A stretch of DNA of 10,836 bases from Stephanodiscus triporus (lineage: Eukaryota > Bacillariophyta > Thalassiosirophyceae > Thalassiosirales > Thalassiosiraceae), in assembly GCA_036939755.1 (NCBI GenBank), contig JALLAZ010002689.1, positions 1 to 10,836 of the forward strand, read 5' to 3'. Below are positions 2,563 to 10,836 of the stretch, in pieces (positions within the stretch are counted from its first letter, which is position 1; every line of letters starts with the position of its first letter). The notes below the pieces were generated by a model. The model saw only the letters and a program-made list of their open reading frames with translations, was not told the origin of the DNA and made no database searches. A program made the translations under genes and the position numbers.

Positions 2563-3958
2563 TTATCGGCATTTCATCTTACCAGAGCAATAATCATCAC
2601 GGGTTTGCTGGCGCTCTCGTCTTCTTCTCCCTCCGTCCCAATCTTTTCCCTCTTCGTCTATCTTGAGCCAAAATGTTTGTAGGTCTCCCTTTCCTTTTGC
2701 TTTCACAAAGTGCTCTCGCGGGGTTACCCAGTCGCCTGCAATCGTTCACAAACAACGACGACGGAGAGAGCGATTAAAAGGACGATGAACGATAAAGCAA
2801 TACCAGGCAGGACAGCAGAAATGGCATAGTACAAACTAATCAGAACTCGCCTTGCCCTGTTTTTTCAAGCAATTCCGCTGTATCCTTGCTTAAGTGAATC
2901 CTATCCGGCTCGCCCGTACTTTCTATCCTTGATGCCGTGTTCATCGTGTCCCCGAACACATCAAATCTATTGTTCCCTCTTAATACTCCTGCCAAGACAG
3001 GCCCGGAATGTATTCCAATCCTGATTTTTAGTTCGCTGATGCCTGTCATCTCATTTTGCTCAATCAACCTTTTCAAAACCTCATTTGCCTTACTGCGACA
3101 GCGTTGTGCAAACTGCACCAACAATACAGCGTGATCTTCTCGCGGATACGGAGCGCCAGTAGATGCAATGTAACAGTCTCCGACGGTGGAAATATGGAAC
3201 ACATCCATTTCCTTTGCGATATTGTCAAACTCAGAGAAGAGCGACTCCAATAGATCGAATACCTGATTCGCGGTGTGCACGGAGGACCATGACGTGAAGT
3301 TGGAAATGTCCGCGAACATGATTGATGTGTCAGGGAAGCTTGCAGCGATTGGGCTAAAGTCAGCGACGACAGTTGATATGAGTTTTCGTTTCGTCTGAAT
3401 GAAGTCTTGTATACGACGAATCGTTATTAAGTCCGAGCGAGATATGCTATTGTCCGGAAACTTTACATCAGATCCTAAATCTCCGTTCTGATACTCATCG
3501 TCCTCAACGCTGTCGAACACTGTCGTTCTCCTTAAGCTTGGCATATCATCTTTACCACCGCCCCGTGTACGTCGCTCCCTGATTGTTAGTGGGAACGAGG
3601 GTTCAAGAACACTACCTCCCAAAGCCGCGGCGTGGCGATGTCGCTTGTCCGTCCCATCGAGAAGAATTGGGACGCCAACCGAAAAGAGGTATGCCGATGT
3701 TAGAACGGACACCGTCGCCGTTAGGACGTCGACTATACGGCGAGCGGTCGTGTCCACGTGGTCTACGGCGCGCAATAGACGATCGACCCCACAAAAAAAG
3801 ACGACGAGGGCGAGCGATGCCAATAGTGCGACGAGTTGCGTCGTCTTCGTAGCTCGTCCCGTCACCCTGCGAAACTTGACCAGGCCCACCAATATCTGTA
3901 TGGCAATTGAGAAGTATGATATCGCGATGATTAGATCGGATGCATAATATAACGTCAT
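2563..3958 (-). CDS. Membrane class III nucleotide cyclase with ETR1-like sensor domain (two exons)
   Basis: Exons 3958-2851 and 2735-2563 give 426 residues. Three hydrophobic segments (about 8-29, 41-65, 74-100) resemble the ethylene-receptor membrane domain: S7-D8, then Y15-F-S-I in helix 1 and C56-G in helix 2, with similar text in helix 3 (VLTA-x-VS). The copper-ligand His of ETR1 is Arg60 here. An Arg/Asp-rich linker leads to a class III cyclase domain (about 205-400) that would make cAMP or cGMP on the cytosolic side. Metal-binding D217 and D261, and catalytic N340 and R344, are present. The base-specifying pair is S257 and D333; the Asp is adenylate-cyclase-like, the Ser fits neither class. 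With one cyclase domain it should act as a homodimer. Exon 2 supplies the canonical end of the domain (WVTPRE, then KAKGKG-x-LQTFWL), which exon 1 alone lacks. Start uncertain: the frame is open 23 codons upstream without an ATG. A good donor (GTAAGA, at 2582) before the stop leaves further exons possible. Confidence 0.85.
2736..2850 (-). other. GC-AG intron in the cyclase gene
   Basis: A 115-nt intron in phase 1. The donor is CAAG|GCGAGT and the acceptor TTGCAG|GCGAC. Reading through without splicing gives a stop two codons after the donor-containing codon and cuts off the cyclase domain. Splicing restores the family-typical ending GDWVTPRE...KGKGDLQTFWL. No GT donor nearby has the required phase, and the only acceptor after the upstream in-frame TGA is the one chosen. 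A near-perfect match to the extended donor consensus is characteristic of GC-AG introns. Confidence 0.8.
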
Positions 3959-4319
3959 GATGCAATACTTCTCCGCAATTTCGATTGGGAATTGAACATG
4001 TTGTATTGTCGAATTCCTTCCAGTGTTAATAATTAGGACTTGAATCGTACTTCAAGTTGGGGCGGCGGGGTGTACGTGGTCATGTGTCAAACAACAGATG
4101 TTCGCCTTCGATTCCCGAACTCAAACTTCAACGCGACAAAAATATAGAGTAAGTACGAGATTAAGAGGTATTTTGTCGCGGGCCAAAAATCACGATAAAA
4201 TTAGAAGAATGGACACTAAGTGCAGTATTGTTGTTAAATCATTATTTCCTCACTAAACCGGCCCAGCAGAGTATTCAGACAGGTAGAGCATGTGTTTCCC
4301 TTTCGATTGATATATGATA
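3959..4319. other. Intergenic region between the divergent cyclase and transposon
   Basis: Probably the cyclase promoter and 5' UTR. On the minus strand, 3959-4016 is open in frame with the cyclase and contains two Cys (CSIPIEIAEKYCIM just before TLYY). A short open reading frame beginning ATG at 4083 (MTTYTPPPQLE...) lies a further 34 nt upstream. A tiny intron (4017-4050) would join them in frame, but 34 nt is unusually short. Nothing else is supported. Confidence 0.4.
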
Positions 4320-4479: not shown

Positions 4480-5466
4480 ATGCCAAAGGTCAACATCCGA
4501 TCGGCAGCTTGTGTGGAAAGGGCCGTTGAACTGTACAAGAAGCACCCAACCTTGTCTGTTCCGCAGTTGATGAAACTTGCGGATTTTCCTGCAAATGAGC
4601 TTGATGATCGTGCCGCGCGCATGTGCATATATCGCCGTATAAAGAAATGGCAGATCACCCCCAAGAGAGATGTATACAAGACGCCTCCTCCCACTACTGT
4701 TGATGTCAGCGGCCAGCAAGGAACATTGTCTTCGGTCACAGCGTCAGCAGTGAGCGTCACAGGTCCACCACAGAAGGTGAAACGCGTCAGAATGACAGCA
4801 GGCGCTGCTCAGACTGTGCGCGCTGCAAAGAAAGTGGCAGCAGACACTCACAAGATTGCATTTAAGCACGCTACAACGGTTTATGCTAGAGAGAAAGAGA
4901 AAACAGATGGCAAGTCGGCGCAATATGTGGTTGATCTTATAAAGAAAGAGTTCAACGTAAGTCTATCTGCAAGAACGATTCAGAGAAAAGTCAAGAATGG
5001 AGAAATTGGCACTTCACCTGTCCGCCGTGGCCCAAAAGGCAGCATTCCAGATATCCATTACAAGAATATTCTCATGGCGTTTGAGTCTTTCGTGACAATC
5101 AGCCAATTGAATGGTAAGGCACGCGAGGCTACCCAAAAGAAGCTCTCCACAAGACTGTGGAAGATGCTTCATCATGATTCCAACGCTCCAATCGGAAGAG
5201 AACATCAGACCTTTCTCAAGCGTGTGTTGAAGGATACTGCCGTCAACCTTCAAGTTGGAAAGGTCAAACATGTAGAGGACAGGCGTGTTCGGTGGACGAC
5301 CTACAAGAACCTTTGCTTATGGTTCGATAACTGGGAACATGACTTGATTGAGTTGGGGTTCGCACATCGCGATCCCCAAACTCAGCAGGTGTGCATCCCT
5401 GAGGATCAGTTAGGAACATCCTCAACTTCGATGAGACATGCTTATCACTGGAACAACAAAACATAA
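4480..5466 (+). pseudogene. Frameshifted, truncated pogo-like (DDE) transposase
   Basis: From ATG 4480 the frame gives 328 residues. The first part has two helix-turn-helix-like regions (about 24-58 and 145-173), a basic stretch between them and an R-R-G-P-K linker (182-186). The region around 270-311 (WFDNWE, then IPEDQ) is the lead-in to a DDE catalytic domain. After Q310 the reading frame loses the family text. One frame over, from 5412, it continues as R-N-I-L-N-F-D-E-T-C-L-S-L, the typical segment around the first catalytic Asp of pogo-type transposases. A single lost base at 5410-5412 explains this. Shortly after (about 5452) the similarity ends in both frames, so the second and third acidic residues are missing. 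The copy cannot encode an active enzyme. The element is probably old or inactivated by deletion; the downstream gene starts almost at once. Confidence 0.75.
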
Positions 5467-5487
5467 AAGAAGTTCATTTTTCTAACA

Positions 5488-7024
5488 ATGAAGGCACCTT
5501 CCCTATGCCGCCACAATCGAGCCTTGCCCTATGCCGCCGCAATCCTTACATTCACCATTCTCAGATGTAGCCTTGCAGTGGCAGCGGTGGCGGACATCAA
5601 TGACTATCCAGCCCCCCTCCAGTGGGCGGTCGAAGTAACCCCTGTCAAGGTCATCGGCCTTGAGCGACGTATCATGGAACAGCCACATGAACGACAGGGA
5701 GGAGAAGAACGATGCCGCATGCCCACCCTCCCGCCCGAACACCACGAAGACGCGTGCGACGGGTCGTCGCAGGCGCACGCCCTGCGACTGCTGGACGATC
5801 ATCCTGAGGCCGTAAACCTTTCCCAGGATGACTTGGACATCATTCATCTGAATATGCCTGAAGAGAAGACTTATATCTGCCCTCCGGAGGAAACGGAGGA
5901 GACGAATTGGGTGGAGGCACGTAGCCTTGGCAATTCGGCTCGTTGGGTGGTTTACAATCGCGCCTCCGGTCCCGTGATCGTATCGCGGCTCGACGCGAGG
6001 GGCGTCGAGGTGTCGGCGACTACGAACAACGACGATGGCGATGACTCGAAGTCGTCTCCGTCTTCGGCAGTTTGGCCCCGCGGCCCGATCTTGCTTCCCG
6101 GATCGATGGCCGTTGTCGAGGGACGACAAGGTCAGTCGTTCGTTGTCAGGGAGTACAAGGAGGTCCTGCTGCCCCCGCCCACAGAGGGCATCCTCGTCGG
6201 TCCGTCGTTCGAGGACGCGAGATCCGTGACGAATGACGGTGTTATGCACGTGTGGGGAAGTCCCGGTCGGATCCTCATGAGGCATCGTATGGGAAACTTA
6301 ATCTTTAGGAATTTATACGGCGCTGAATGTCCTTTGGTGCAATGTCCTTTGGTTCCTTACGATGCTATCCCATTTATGTTGGGAGGAGCAGATGACATGT
6401 GCCCAGGAGTGACAAATGCGCGGGGGGGGATGCCTCGTACGGGGTGAGTTTCATTCGTATTTCATGCCAAATGTGACAAGCATACACTTCTGCGTGTGTT
6501 GATCAGTTCCATTCTATTTGGGCAGGAGAGTCGACAACTCCATTTACGCTTGCAACGTCCTGCTCAAGACATTCGTCAACAAGGTCGGGTGTCCCATTGA
6601 CATCTTCTTCGCCACCCAAGACACAAATCCAGGCGGCGAGGCTGAGGAAGAAGGGGTGGTCTACAGAGATAATCAGTGCAAGTATTTCACCGCTTATCTT
6701 GATCCCCTTGAAAAGCCCTACTCCTCCGAGAATACGTACAATGGTCATTCCTTCATTGCAAGGATGTCCCACGATCAGTCGTTGGTGACGCGCATCGACC
6801 TCAACCATGATGTGGTGACGGATTGCCCGGGACCCAAGAGGCGAGTCGTCAACGCGGCCAACGTGTCCAAAAGAGCGGTTCAGGCGGGGAAACCGCTGGG
6901 AGTTCCCTTCGTCATAGCGCACGCGAATGCCACAAATTGCCACGCTCGCGCGCACGACGGCGTCTGCAGGTCAGTCGATGACAAGGCGGTCGCCAACGTC
7001 ACCTATGCCGTATGCATTTTATAA
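5488..7024 (+). CDS. Secreted protein with two VHL-beta-like modules (two exons)
   Basis: Exons 5488-6443 and 6526-7024 give 484 residues. The N-terminus is a signal peptide with a hydrophobic core at about 13-33 and likely cleavage near A33-D36. Module 1 (about 150-225) has the pattern of the von Hippel-Lindau beta domain: VYNRASGPV, a charged strand (RLDARGVEV), L-L-P-G-S, then G-Q-S-F-V-V-R-E. A low-complexity Asn/Asp/Ser insert interrupts it (179-194). Module 2 (about 326-440) has F-V-N-K-V-G-C-P-I-D-I, later T-Y-N-G-H-S-F-I-A-R and D-C-P-G. In VHL this fold recognises hydroxyproline; whether that holds here is inference. Cys are frequent and partly paired in sequence, fitting an extracytoplasmic location. 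I associate this two-module arrangement with secreted diatom proteins of unknown role. A strong donor at 6970 offers an alternative C-terminus. The promoter or 5' UTR would lie inside the transposon remnant. Confidence 0.7.
5501..5544 (+). repeat. 26-bp-spaced direct repeat in the signal-peptide coding region
   Basis: CCCTATGCCGCCACAATC at 5501-5518 recurs at 5527-5544 with one difference (A to G). The 26-bp offset is not a multiple of three, so the copies are read in different frames: the first gives the polar n-region (S-L-C-R-H-N), the second the hydrophobic P-Y-A-A-A-I. Confidence 0.85.
6326..6353 (+). repeat. 15-bp tandem duplication (CPLVQ/CPLVP)
   Basis: AATGTCCTTTGGT occurs at 6326-6338 and again at 6341-6353, giving two consecutive Cys-Pro-Leu-Val units in the secreted protein (residues 281-289). 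It is in frame, so it looks like a small tandem duplication that added a Cys. Confidence 0.7.
6444..6525 (+). other. Intron in the VHL-beta-like gene
   Basis: An 82-nt intron in phase 2. The donor is ACGGG|GTGAGT and the acceptor TTGGGCAG|GAGAGTC. Without splicing the frame stops at 6445; with splicing it continues RTGRVDNSIYAC into the second conserved module. Confidence 0.85.
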
Positions 7025-7227: not shown

Positions 7228-9271
7228 TTAGGCGTTTCGTTTGAATAGCATAAGACCCATTATGGCTACCGCGATACCACCGACTGCAACGAAGTAGAGG
7301 TTTAAGCCTCCTACCTCGGTGAGGAGGGTAAGGACACTGGCGCGACGAAGGAATTGGCGGTGCTCCTCTTCCACTTCAGACTTGACCTGATACGGAGAAA
7401 GCATTTTAAGTCAAGGTTTTTTTACAGAGACGAAGGAAGGCAAAAGTGAGGCGTTCATTTATCCACACGTACCTCATACTTCGCATCAAACTCCGCATCG
7501 TCGCTCGTGGGCGACGCCGCGAAGAGCTCTCGACCAATGGGACTGCCCTTCCTCTTCTTCGATGCGTTGTCGACTTTCTCGGCGAGATAGCTTTCTCGGC
7601 GCAAGTTTGCCTTATTGATACGATTCTCGATCTCCTCGATATTACTCGTAGTCGAGCCTCGAGGGGACGGTAGCACTTTCTTGGTCGGCATCATTTCCAA
7701 CAGCTGAGCCTCCCTCCTCTCGTTGGCTTCCACAAGCTTCCTCTCGATGTCGATGAGACGCTGGATCTCCTCAAGACCTTTGATTTTGTTGAGCTGCGCC
7801 ACCTTGTCGATCTTGCTCCTATTCTCATCTTGCCTCTCGTCAACCATCGCCTTAAGAATCGCATTCTTCTTCTTGGTAGCCCGCGCCAGCCTCTTTTCGC
7901 TCATCAACTTTAACTCCTTCGCTTCGGCTAGCGACAGTTGCAACGTCTCCTGAGCCCGCATTTGTTTCATATCATAACCACTCTTGATCGACTCCACCTT
8001 GCTCGCAATGATGCCCTCTTTCCTTTCATTAGCAGAGTGCAATTTCGATCGAATCATCTTGCCAATCACTTCGATAGCCTTCTCTTCCTCCTTTTTCCTT
8101 TCGATGACGAGCCGCTCCTTCTTCAATGCCAAGTCCTTCAGAATCTCCTGCTGGTCACGGATTAGGTCTTCGCGACGCTTATTGGCCTGTTCGACCTTAG
8201 TCGTGATCTGTTCGCTCTTCTCCTTGGCCTTTTCGTCCACTAGCTTGCCGACGTCCAACCCTCGACGGAGTTTGTCTTTGGTTTGGGCCGCAATGGCCTC
8301 GATTTTTTCAGCGATCGCCCGCGCCTTTCGCTCCTCCGCCCGCTTCGCCTTATCCTCAATCTCGGCGAGGAGCGCGTGTCTCTGCTCCTCGTCTTGCTTG
8401 AGCGCGTCTGCTGCTTTCTCCTTCTTAGATGCAGCGCACTCGTTCAGACGAGCCGATTGAAGGATTTGATTCATTTCACGACGATGATCGGCGGCAACAA
8501 CCTTCTGTTCGATGCGAGCATCAATCAGCTTCGCGGCGTCTTCGGCGGCACTGAGAGCGAGCTGACCCCGGCTGAGCTTATCCTGGTTGACCATCGCCAG
8601 CTTCTCCTGGTTCTCCAGTTTCATTTCCTCCCTACGCAAATCAGCCGTCAATGACTTGATGTCGATCTTGGTTTCCAGCTCCTTCGCCGACCATTCTTCG
8701 TCTACTTTCGCTTTGGCTCCACGCTGGAGCTTGTCAATTGTGGCCTGAGAAAGTTTTTGCACCCAAGAAGTAGTAGCCTCATTCTTCTTGGCCTCCGCGT
8801 TACTAAGCTTCGAATTAATTCTTGCTTCAAGCGAATTGAGCTTCTCCGCCGCTTGCTCCTTTGACTTTTCGAAGATGGCCTGAGCTTTGGCATTGTGAGC
8901 GGCCACCTTGGAAATGTCAGCGTCCAAAGTATCTTGCTTGCGTTTGTTCGCCTCGTCAATTCTTCTGTTGATGTCTTCCAAGCTAAACGCGTTCCTCGGG
9001 CTATCCGCCAGTCCAGCGAGCCTCATTTGAATCGACGAGGGAATCGTACTTTCCTTGGAAGATCGGAGCGGAGCAATAGCCTGGACGTTAGGAGGTCCGA
9101 AAAAGGATGTTCGTGCCCAATGATGGCAATTTGTACGTTGCAAAGATTGCTGCTCACCTTCTTCTTGATCGGGATTTCGAACGCAACGGACTCGGGAAAG
9201 TCGAGGATCCAATCCTCTCCTGCATCCTTCTTCTCGGCGGCCAATATCGATTCGGGAGGGGTTGAAGTCAT
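7228..9271 (-). CDS. Tail-anchored stathmin-like helical protein with nine 51-residue repeats (three exons)
   Basis: Exons 9271-9158, 9080-7473 and 7386-7228 give 626 residues. Residues 1-68 are a variable leader (MTSTPPES, DWILDFPES); about 72-500 is charged, Ala-rich and proline-free, so one long helix is likely. The motif A-x-x-[RK]-[RK], often ANxRRE, recurs at A82, 133, 184, 235, 286, 337, 388, 439 and 490, exactly 51 residues apart; a further copy at A529 follows a Pro/Gly break. Stathmin-family proteins bind alpha/beta-tubulin through helical repeats in the same 51-residue register, close to the 8-nm dimer length, and carry similar A-E-E-R-R text. The third exon ends with one transmembrane segment (about 602-622) and the short tail FKRNA, the layout of a tail-anchored protein with the helix in the cytosol. 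I infer a membrane-tethered tubulin-binding protein. A generic coiled coil is the main alternative. The start ATG at 9271 is the first in the exon-1 frame. Confidence 0.75.
7387..7472 (-). other. Intron 2 of the stathmin-like gene
   Basis: An 86-nt phase-0 intron. The donor is TATGAG|GTACGT and the acceptor CCGTATCAG|GTCAAG. Unspliced, the frame ends six codons later (VRVDK, stop). Spliced, it continues VKSEVEEEHRQFLRR into the membrane anchor, so the tail anchor depends on this splice. Confidence 0.85.
9081..9157 (-). other. Intron 1 of the stathmin-like gene
   Basis: A 77-nt phase-0 intron. The donor is AAGAAG|GTGAGC and the acceptor AACGTCCAG|GCTATT. It joins the short first exon (ending EIPIKKK) to AIAPLRSSKE. 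The intron is open in the downstream frame, which is why an unspliced reading frame seems to run on to 9350 with unrelated text. Confidence 0.8.
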
Positions 9272-9745: not shown

Positions 9746-10836
9746 ATGGCCCCGCTCGAGGCTGGCTCCCCACCTCGCCACATAATCGTGGCCCCCTTCA
9801 TCCTCTCTCTGCTGATCGCCGCCTCCTCCTCCCCGCATGTCCGCGGATTCACCGTCCCCGACAACGCCTCCGCCACCACGCGTCGGTCCGCCATCGAACG
9901 ATTCCGCGACCTCTCCCTGGCCCCCCTCGTCCTGCCGACGACGACGACGACGACGACGACGACGTTGGTCCTGCCCCCGGATGCATTCGCATCCGGCCTC
10001 ATCTCCCCCGTTTCCCCCGGGGGAGGAGGTGGCGGAGGAGGTGGCGGAGGAGGTGGCGGAGGAGGTGGAGGAGAGACGTCGACGATCACGACGACCACCA
10101 CGCCGATATCCGCATCGTGGCGCGCAGTCGACGGTCTTAACAGCCTCGACTCCCAACGCGAATTCGTATCGTTCGACGAATCGGCCTACATGGCAATGGT
10201 CAACGACAAGAGTCGCACGCCTCTCTTCGAGAGGGCGATAATAAATCGCCTGAATTCCGCCGAGGGCGGTCCGAGCAGTCAGGTGGTACTCGATCTAGGC
10301 ACGGGTCCGTACGCCCTCTTCGCGATAATCGCCGCGAGGGCGGGCGCGGGCAAGGTGTACGCAGTCGAGGCTTCGAAATCCGCGTGTCTATCGGCGAGGG
10401 AGGCGGTGCGCAGGGCCGGATACGAGGGTACGATATTCGTCCTCGGGGGGTATTCCACGGAGTTGGACCTCCCCGACGGCGATCGCGCGGACGTCGCGAT
10501 CGCCGAGATCGTCGGCAGCGTCGCGAGCGAGGAGGGACTCGTCGCGACGATATCCGACGCCTCCGCGCGACTGATGAAAAGGCCGAACGATCCGAATTCG
10601 TGGATACCGAGGGGGGTGCAGACGTTGGCGTCGCCGGCGAGTTATTCCCTCCACAACCTCTTTCGGCCCCCGGCGTTCGATTGGACGAAATTGGAAGGCG
10701 AGCCGGTGAGGTTCAACTGTCGCGACGAGGGATTGCAATTGCTATCGGATCCGATCGTGGTCGAGGACTTGAACTTCGCCGATTTGGGCATGATGAAGAA
10801 GAGGACGAAGGGGGGGGAGGGGGGAACGAATAATAA
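9746..10836 (+). CDS. PRMT-like SAM-dependent methyltransferase, candidate plastid-targeted (3' end outside window)
   Basis: The frame is open from ATG 9746 (A at -3, G at +4) to the window edge: 363 codons, no stop, C-terminus missing. Residues 13-28 are a hydrophobic signal peptide; G34-F35-T-V-P with S/T/A/R-rich text after it resembles the diatom plastid motif with Phe at +1. A nine-Thr run (65-73) and an 18-Gly run (92-109) form a long linker. Around 140-170 comes PRMT-like text (Y-M-A-M-V-N-D-K-S-R-T-P-L-F-E-R-A-I). Motif I is VVLDLGTGP (180-188). E208 (YAVEAS) is the expected ribose-binding acid. E254 and E263 are nine residues apart, the spacing of the PRMT double-E loop that holds the substrate guanidinium. 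I infer a protein arginine methyltransferase or a relative acting in or on the way to the plastid. The THW-loop region that would support this lies beyond the window. Codon use is very GC-rich. Confidence 0.75.
   Translation, partial: MAPLEAGSPPRHIIVAPFILSLLIAASSSPHVRGFTVPDNASATTRRSAIERFRDLSLAPLVLPTTTTTTTTTLVLPPDAFASGLISPVSPGGGGGGGGGGGGGGGGGGETSTITTTTTPISASWRAVDGLNSLDSQREFVSFDESAYMAMVNDKSRTPLFERAIINRLNSAEGGPSSQVVLDLGTGPYALFAIIAARAGAGKVYAVEASKSACLSAREAVRRAGYEGTIFVLGGYSTELDLPDGDRADVAIAEIVGSVASEEGLVATISDASARLMKRPNDPNSWIPRGVQTLASPASYSLHNLFRPPAFDWTKLEGEPVRFNCRDEGLQLLSDPIVVEDLNFADLGMMKKRTKGGEGGTNN
9938..9964 (+). repeat. (ACG)9 codon repeat, poly-Thr
   Basis: Nine consecutive ACG codons encode Thr65-Thr73 of the methyltransferase, in the linker between the presequence and the catalytic domain. 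The repeat is likely to vary in length between strains. Confidence 0.85.
10019..10072 (+). repeat. Poly-Gly minisatellite, 12-bp unit
   Basis: About three and a half copies of a 12-bp unit (GGAGGAGGTGGC) plus flanking Gly codons encode 18 consecutive Gly (residues 92-109). The run forms a flexible linker ahead of the methyltransferase fold. Confidence 0.85.

Follow-up and report, generated by a model that had tools for sequence, protein, structure and literature searches.

A putative tail-anchored diatom protein with stathmin-like repeats in a 51-residue register

Introduction

How many tubulin dimers could a single protein helix line up? A gene of the diatom Stephanodiscus triporus raises this question. 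It lies in a stretch of 10,836 nucleotides, analysed here in full (the window), and encodes a protein in which a short motif recurs nine times in one 51-residue register. A helix of 51 residues is ~76 Å long, and the tubulin dimer repeats every ~80 Å. As far as the available text of the sources goes, vertebrate stathmins bind two tubulin dimers (PMC3694009), the complexes of stathmin-like domains of vertebrates with tubulin are 2:1 (PMC6408325), RB3 with tubulin makes a curved, protofilament-like T2R complex (PMC13224075), and free tubulin is preferred by stathmin, which stabilises its curved form (PMC9666403). In the literature searched on stathmins of diatoms and other protists, which was mostly non-subscription, no diatom stathmin or giant stathmin was recognised, and the single diatom paper that came up mentions stathmin solely in a cited reference.

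Results

Gene and protein

Three exons on the minus strand, translated from the sequence after splicing, give a protein of 626 residues (Table 1), and both introns are in phase 0 with GT..AG ends. The relative P0009, from a T. antarctica that we take to be a Thalassiosira, agrees with the splice between exons 1 and 2, as it reads SVAFEIPIEKK without a break into the segment that follows. Its source, MMETSP0903, is T. antarctica (Bacillariophyta) according to the available part of PMC9927876. The interval that the first-pass annotation had marked, 7473–9080, equals exon 2 exactly, but the gene also has an exon on each side of it, of which the first is short. A protein search of the 21.65-Mb assembly matched only the three exons of this gene, which, as far as this search shows, has no second copy.

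Table 1 Features of the gene and its protein (positions in the window, residues of the spliced protein)
Feature	Position	Strand	Remarks
exon 1	9158..9271	minus	residues 1–38
intron 1	9081..9157	minus	GT..AG
exon 2	7473..9080	minus	residues 39–574; carries all nine motif copies
intron 2	7387..7472	minus	GT..AG
exon 3	7228..7386	minus	residues 575–626 and stop; codes the transmembrane tail (probable)
SVAFEIP	9170..9190	minus	residues 28–34; resembles stathmin N-terminal GQAFELIL
S65-P66	8997..9002	minus	directly before the helix (predicted), near the place of stathmin S38-P39
unit 1	8832..8984	minus	motif A82; step to unit 2 is 49–50 in 13/22 sequences
unit 2	8679..8831	minus	motif A133
unit 3	8526..8678	minus	motif A184
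unit 4	8373..8525	minus	motif A235; absent from P0024–P0026
unit 5	8220..8372	minus	motif A286
unit 6	8067..8219	minus	motif A337
unit 7	7914..8066	minus	motif A388
unit 8	7761..7913	minus	motif A439; sole unit not to pick the stathmin register
partial unit 9	7689..7760	minus	motif A490; proline-free stretch stops at 502
second short module SPR..EEIENRINKANLRRES	7548..7667	minus	residues 510–549, after a proline-containing break
probable transmembrane tail anchor	7243..7299	minus	residues 604–622 (19), then KRNA; mean hydropathy 2.38

Repeat array

The first-pass annotation had read A-x-x-[RK]-[RK] at residues 82, 133, 184, 235, 286, 337, 388, 439, and 490, and the motif was found at all nine with the letters it had given. 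As also claimed, each of the eight steps is exactly 51 residues with no indel within this protein, and the repeat stretch is free of proline (none in residues 67–502). Extra matches to the motif occur at residues 11, 254, 529, and 544.

Residues 71–502 make eight complete 51-residue units (71–478) and 24 residues of a ninth (479–502). Eight full candidate sites are therefore found on the predicted continuous helix (71–502), but the ninth is partial, and the nine tubulin dimers proposed earlier are probably one too many.

When the protein was compared with itself (residues 68–503, lags 3–200), lags 51, 102, and 153 gave the three highest self-similarities, in agreement with the register that had been proposed. 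The protein has a mean BLOSUM62 self-score of 0.51 at lag 51; plain shuffles gave −0.42 ± 0.10, and those keeping the 51/14 helical phase −0.26 ± 0.10. None of 2000 shuffles reached the score of the protein under any of the four schemes, which keep composition, heptad, hendecad, or 51/14 phase. At most four motifs shared one 51-register in the shuffles, compared with nine in the protein. Mean pairwise identity among the units inside the protein is only 19%.

Helix pitch and conserved face

The helix region is charge-rich, with a long K/E/A-rich stretch, and its strongest hydrophobic period is 3.645 residues, which is 51/14. The period is 3.625–3.65 in the ten relatives measured (P0009 left out). 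Among known stathmins it is 3.64 in the engineered stathmin-like domain R4, 3.635 in a four-repeat stathmin-1b of pipefish, and 3.615 in stathmin P0038. Column conservation across the relatives also peaks at 3.645 (permutation p 0.0002). A heptad periodicity of 3.5 was not found in either measure, as hydrophobicity peaks at 3.645 and conservation at 3.5 has a permutation p of 0.26. The seven most conserved unit positions (0, 47, 22, 4, 3, 44, and 25) fall within an arc of ~100 degrees. Among the three that rank next, positions 48 and 19 are at the arc edge (64 and 78 degrees) and position 5 is outside the arc (134 degrees). This pattern is predicted by a straight helix on a 51-residue lattice and not by a left-handed heptad coiled coil; 51/14 could also come from a right-handed coil that mixes heptads and hendecads.

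Unit profile against stathmin

A mean unit profile was scored gap-free along the stathmin helix, with a short window of 26 residues (−10 to +15) and 70 registers. The best register puts the unit alanine on stathmin residue 57 (AEERR) with a score of 4.82, which none of 2000 shuffles reached under any of three schemes (highest shuffle, 3.73). The second register, with a score of 1.73, is residue 108 (NKENR), or 57+51, the same site of stathmin repeat 2, although it is partly expected from the first because the two repeats of stathmin resemble each other. Controls scored 1.54 with reversed stathmin, 1.24 with tropomyosin, 1.63 with TolA, and 1.31 with MukB (the best of 1461 registers). The earlier expectation that a unit profile would match stathmin rather than generic coiled coils was thus borne out with the short window, in which tropomyosin, TolA, and MukB are far lower.

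Two single stathmins scored 4.34 and 4.64 at repeat 1, and 3.58 and 3.68 at repeat 2, respectively. The four repeats of engineered R4 are the four best registers of the profile; in pipefish stathmin-1b, the three leading registers are those of repeats, and the remaining repeat ties for fourth place. With a 46-residue window (−10 to +35), residue 57 still leads with 3.36, reached by 0 of 2000 shuffles (highest shuffle, 3.19). Residue 108 was outside the top four registers when the averaged stathmin helix was scanned with this window, and the second repeats of the single stathmins (1.72 and 1.29) sink near TolA (1.28). The likeness to stathmin is therefore concentrated around the motif.

When the units were tested singly, residue 57 was chosen by eight of nine with the short window and by seven of nine with 51 residues, and unit 8 chose it in neither window. 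Each of the four stathmins put through a circular register test chose residues 57/108, and 4 of 1000 shuffles keeping the 51/14 phase reached the observed score; the second half of stathmin alone preferred residue 104, four residues off. A pattern devised after the fact, [ILVM]..[KR][LIVMA]..[AN]..[RKN][RK], matches seven of the nine units as well as residues 522 and 537. Elsewhere it matches both repeats of stathmin P0119, all four of R4, and two of the four in pipefish P0047; tropomyosin has no match. In phase-keeping shuffles it occurred 0.10 times on average and at most twice.

Whole-domain comparisons

The top Pfam family of the S. triporus protein is Stathmin (PF00836), with an E of 0.0074 and 16.7 bits, below the cut-off of 24.7 bits. 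At E ≤ 10 it is matched by 20 of the 22 family members, the best E being 6.7e-7. Of the eight relatives that were scanned one by one, P0005 alone passes the cut-off (29.8 bits, 6.7e-7), P0002 being just under it with 24.2 bits, and P0009 and P0021 have no Pfam family at E ≤ 1. When the S. triporus protein was cut into nine fragments, Stathmin matched the N-terminal one (E 0.00047, 20.6 bits) and the C-terminal module (E 0.0039, residues 506–549 on profile 32–74), and seven had no Stathmin match. The unrelated family P66_CC scores as well as Stathmin, with an E of 0.002 on one fragment. For a tandem of the unit consensus, Stathmin ranks fourth with 15.4 bits. Decoy tandem repeats made from the consensus gave spurious Pfam matches up to 32.7 bits, some above cut-off, while none of the nine decoys matched Stathmin. 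Because of the decoy matches and P66_CC, the Pfam E-values are to be read with care, and the case for stathmin rests elsewhere.

Searches of PDB sequences with the whole protein and the whole profile did not find stathmin. The comparison of the family with 13 vertebrate stathmins by hhalign, in which both alignments are shallow (Neff 1.8 and 2.0), gave a probability of 2.4% and an E of 0.019. The alignment opens in the expected register, A235 on A57, and then requires gaps. A local HMM built from 101 stathmin hits scored the family poorly. Pfam Stathmin had no match at E ≤ 0.001 in the whole genome, where the controls likewise had none.

Of the earlier claim that the protein is stathmin-like, the register, the helical pitch, the S/T-P site, and the Pfam matches stand in favour, but the whole-domain statistics are weak. 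Judged from sequence, the likeness appears strong at the level of the repeat unit, and common descent with the stathmin family is likely but not proved.

Relatives and constancy of spacing

At least 27 relatives were found, 21 by protein search and 6 by profile search; each search scored the 8000 candidates sharing most words, and the family may be larger. The viral contigs scanned with the family held no relative.

In an alignment of 22 sequences, 160 steps were measurable and 143 were 51 long. Thirteen of the 17 other steps are step 1 (12 of 49 and one of 50), and the four beyond it are 55 (P0009), 28 (P0007), 50 (P0008), and 50 (P0013), where P0011, a near twin of P0013, has 51. The constant unit length predicted for relatives held at steps 2 to 8 (51 in 134 of 138) but not at step 1, which is 49 or 50 in 13 of the 22. 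Likewise, the strict absence of indels holds within the S. triporus protein and is not kept at step 1 in the family as a whole. Unit 1 lacks two residues (step 49) in P0009–P0020 and a single one (50) in P0008; a two-residue loss would rotate the first site by ~160 degrees.

Among 168 aligned units of 21 relatives, 16 were dropped for gaps, and each of the 152 compared scores best against the unit at the same position of the S. triporus protein, which argues that the array predates the divergence of the family. The divergent P0024–P0026 are without exactly unit 4, so that unit 3 leads to unit 5 in exactly 51 residues. After this gap units 6 and 7 follow in 51-residue steps, and the motif after unit 7 also comes 51 residues on, although its unit is cut and weak. 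Over residues 133–490, the indels against P0002, P0003, P0008, and P0009 are 0, 0, 1, and 1, while the shorter C-terminal flank has 5, 9, 7, and 8 against the same four. The constancy of the spacing, with few indels in the array and many in a shorter flank, argues that the spacing is under selection, except at step 1.

Parts flanking the helix

Ahead of the helix, AFEI or AFDI occurs in 5 of 28 sequences. Fourteen begin too late to show the motif, and nine with at least 30 residues ahead of the helix have a different predicted N-terminus, perhaps by reading into an intron. A [ST]-P site precedes the helix in 19 of the 28, with K/R at +3 in 15 of these 19, and the other nine begin downstream of the site. 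Behind the helix, the second short module was kept in all seven sequences examined, at 38–40 residues from motif 9 (39 in S. triporus) and therefore off the 51 register. The C-terminal hydrophobic segment, from its composition a probable transmembrane tail anchor, has a similar counterpart in all five relatives examined (P0002, P0003, P0008, P0009, and P0027); P0001 ends before it.

Comparison with known systems

Like the stathmin family (STMN1-4, PF00836), the S. triporus protein has a 51-residue internal repeat with the core I..KL..A..RR in register, a helix start of the SLEEI/SLEDIN kind, and an S-P site before the helix; AFE[IL] is shared by the five sequences of the diatom family that show this motif. 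Unlike stathmins, which have two repeats, it has eight full and one partial, an extra C-terminal module, and a diatom as host. According to the available text of PMC3694009, the membrane-targeting domain of SCG10, SCLIP, and RB3 is N-terminal, so the probable C-terminal anchor here would be a different solution.

Engineered R4 has four repeats in the 51-residue register with nearly the pitch of the S. triporus helix. It is man-made, however, with only four repeats and without a membrane anchor. In the PDB, R4 is chain I of 4f61 and the stathmin-like domain R1 is chain C of 4f6r, letters that would fit four dimers and one dimer, respectively, if the chains lettered before them are tubulin. The paper tied to R4 is said to be that of Mignot in 2012.

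Repeats have also been gained naturally in animals. Drosophila stathmins reportedly take up to four tubulin dimers, by an account attributed to Lachkar in 2010. These and the syngnathid fish stathmin-1b share with the diatom protein a natural gain of repeats in steps of 51, the steps being seen in the fish, but they are not known to exceed four repeats. The stathmin-1b of pipefishes and seahorses, of ~240 residues, is a natural counterpart of engineered R4. By a looser pattern, and among the 120 matches listed, P0047, P0058, P0060, and P0062 have four repeats in exact 51-residue register, and P0056, P0069, P0071, and P0072 have three pattern matches at 51 and 102.

Discussion

The S. triporus protein is probably a tail-anchored giant stathmin-like protein whose sites, 51 residues apart, would hold a row of about eight tubulin dimers. 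One long straight helix (about residues 70–502) would bear a stathmin-type tubulin site every 51 residues exactly (14 turns); every site would then show the same face, and the spacing would match the tubulin dimer. By analogy with animal stathmins, whose two sites take two dimers, about eight curved α/β-tubulin dimers, perhaps nine, could sit end to end. The N-terminal segment would stand at one end of the row, and the C-terminal transmembrane tail would fix the other end to a membrane, where the row might serve for storage, for delivery, or as a template. Proline-directed phosphorylation at the S/T-P site may switch binding off, as in stathmin. Because stathmin holds curved tubulin, in the available text of PMC9666403, eight dimers would make a long arc.

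Convergence is a rival on ancestry only and is compatible with this mechanism. A tubulin-binding repeat helix could have reached 51 residues through the constraint of the dimer, without descent from stathmin. The weak whole-domain statistics and the shortness of the shared features leave room for such an origin, but we regard it as unlikely, because residues match in register and not spacing alone, and because the S/T-P site and the helix start SLEDIN..A..RK come in stathmin order, preceded by AFEI in five sequences.

The array might instead belong to a golgin-like tether, in which two chains would form a long coiled coil with a membrane anchor at the C-terminus and the repeats would be structural only. 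Golgins are tail-anchored heptad coiled coils, and the long helix and C-terminal anchor of the S. triporus protein, with its K/E/A-rich stretch, resemble them; we know of no golgin with a 51-residue stathmin unit. A mixed heptad/hendecad coil with a 51-residue period (1×7 + 4×11) would be compatible with the pitch taken alone. The periods of hydrophobicity and conservation (3.645, not 3.5), the short-window scores of tropomyosin, TolA, and MukB far under that of stathmin, and the 51-residue phase that survives the loss of a whole unit make such a tether improbable.

Another reading that we hold to be improbable is a ruler for the microtubule lattice, in which the helix would run along a protofilament of an assembled microtubule by a membrane, with one unit per dimer. 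Its appeal lies in the nearness of the length of a 51-residue helix to the dimer repeat, in an anchor suited to a microtubule-to-membrane linker, and in a unit that resembles a known tubulin-binding unit. Against it, stathmin, the closest sequence relative, prefers free tubulin and stabilises the curved form (PMC9666403, available text), and the S/T-P site likewise favours a stathmin-type action on free tubulin.

A single-α-helix spacer or rod without a partner, with the repeats as a relic of duplication, would suit the charge-rich composition but is very improbable, because orthologous units are kept alike and in phase while units within the protein are 19% identical, and conservation follows one helical face, which argues that this face is under selection.

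Returning to a stathmin-like row of dimers, one may imagine a larger role, which we put forward as a tentative and rather doubtful extension. The protein could be a membrane-anchored rack that keeps eight or nine dimers as a pre-formed, curved protofilament on the membrane of an organelle or spindle pole. Cell-cycle kinases would release this protofilament, which would be a store or template for fast microtubule assembly in diatoms. Stathmins would then prove to be far older, and to vary far more, than the animal family suggests. If true, a natural protein outside animals with eight or nine sites in phase would be a molecular ruler for tubulin. Such a protein could push the stathmin family back in eukaryote history, and would offer structural biologists a scaffold for long curved protofilaments.

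Neighbouring open frames

Elsewhere in the window, the plus-strand open frames at 4492–5463, 5485–6444, and 6503–7021 have no Pfam match at E ≤ 0.01. On the minus strand, a single open frame at 350–1870 has a CCCH zinc finger and WD40 repeats, and the frame at 2840–4051 has a guanylate/adenylate cyclase catalytic domain (PF00211, E 9.5e-42) and an N-terminal part like ETR1_N (E 2.3e-8). The plus-strand frame at 9746–10834, open at the end of the window, encodes a protein that resembles methyltransferases (PrmA, E 2.7e-5), and its PrmA domain is preceded by Thr- and Gly-rich runs.
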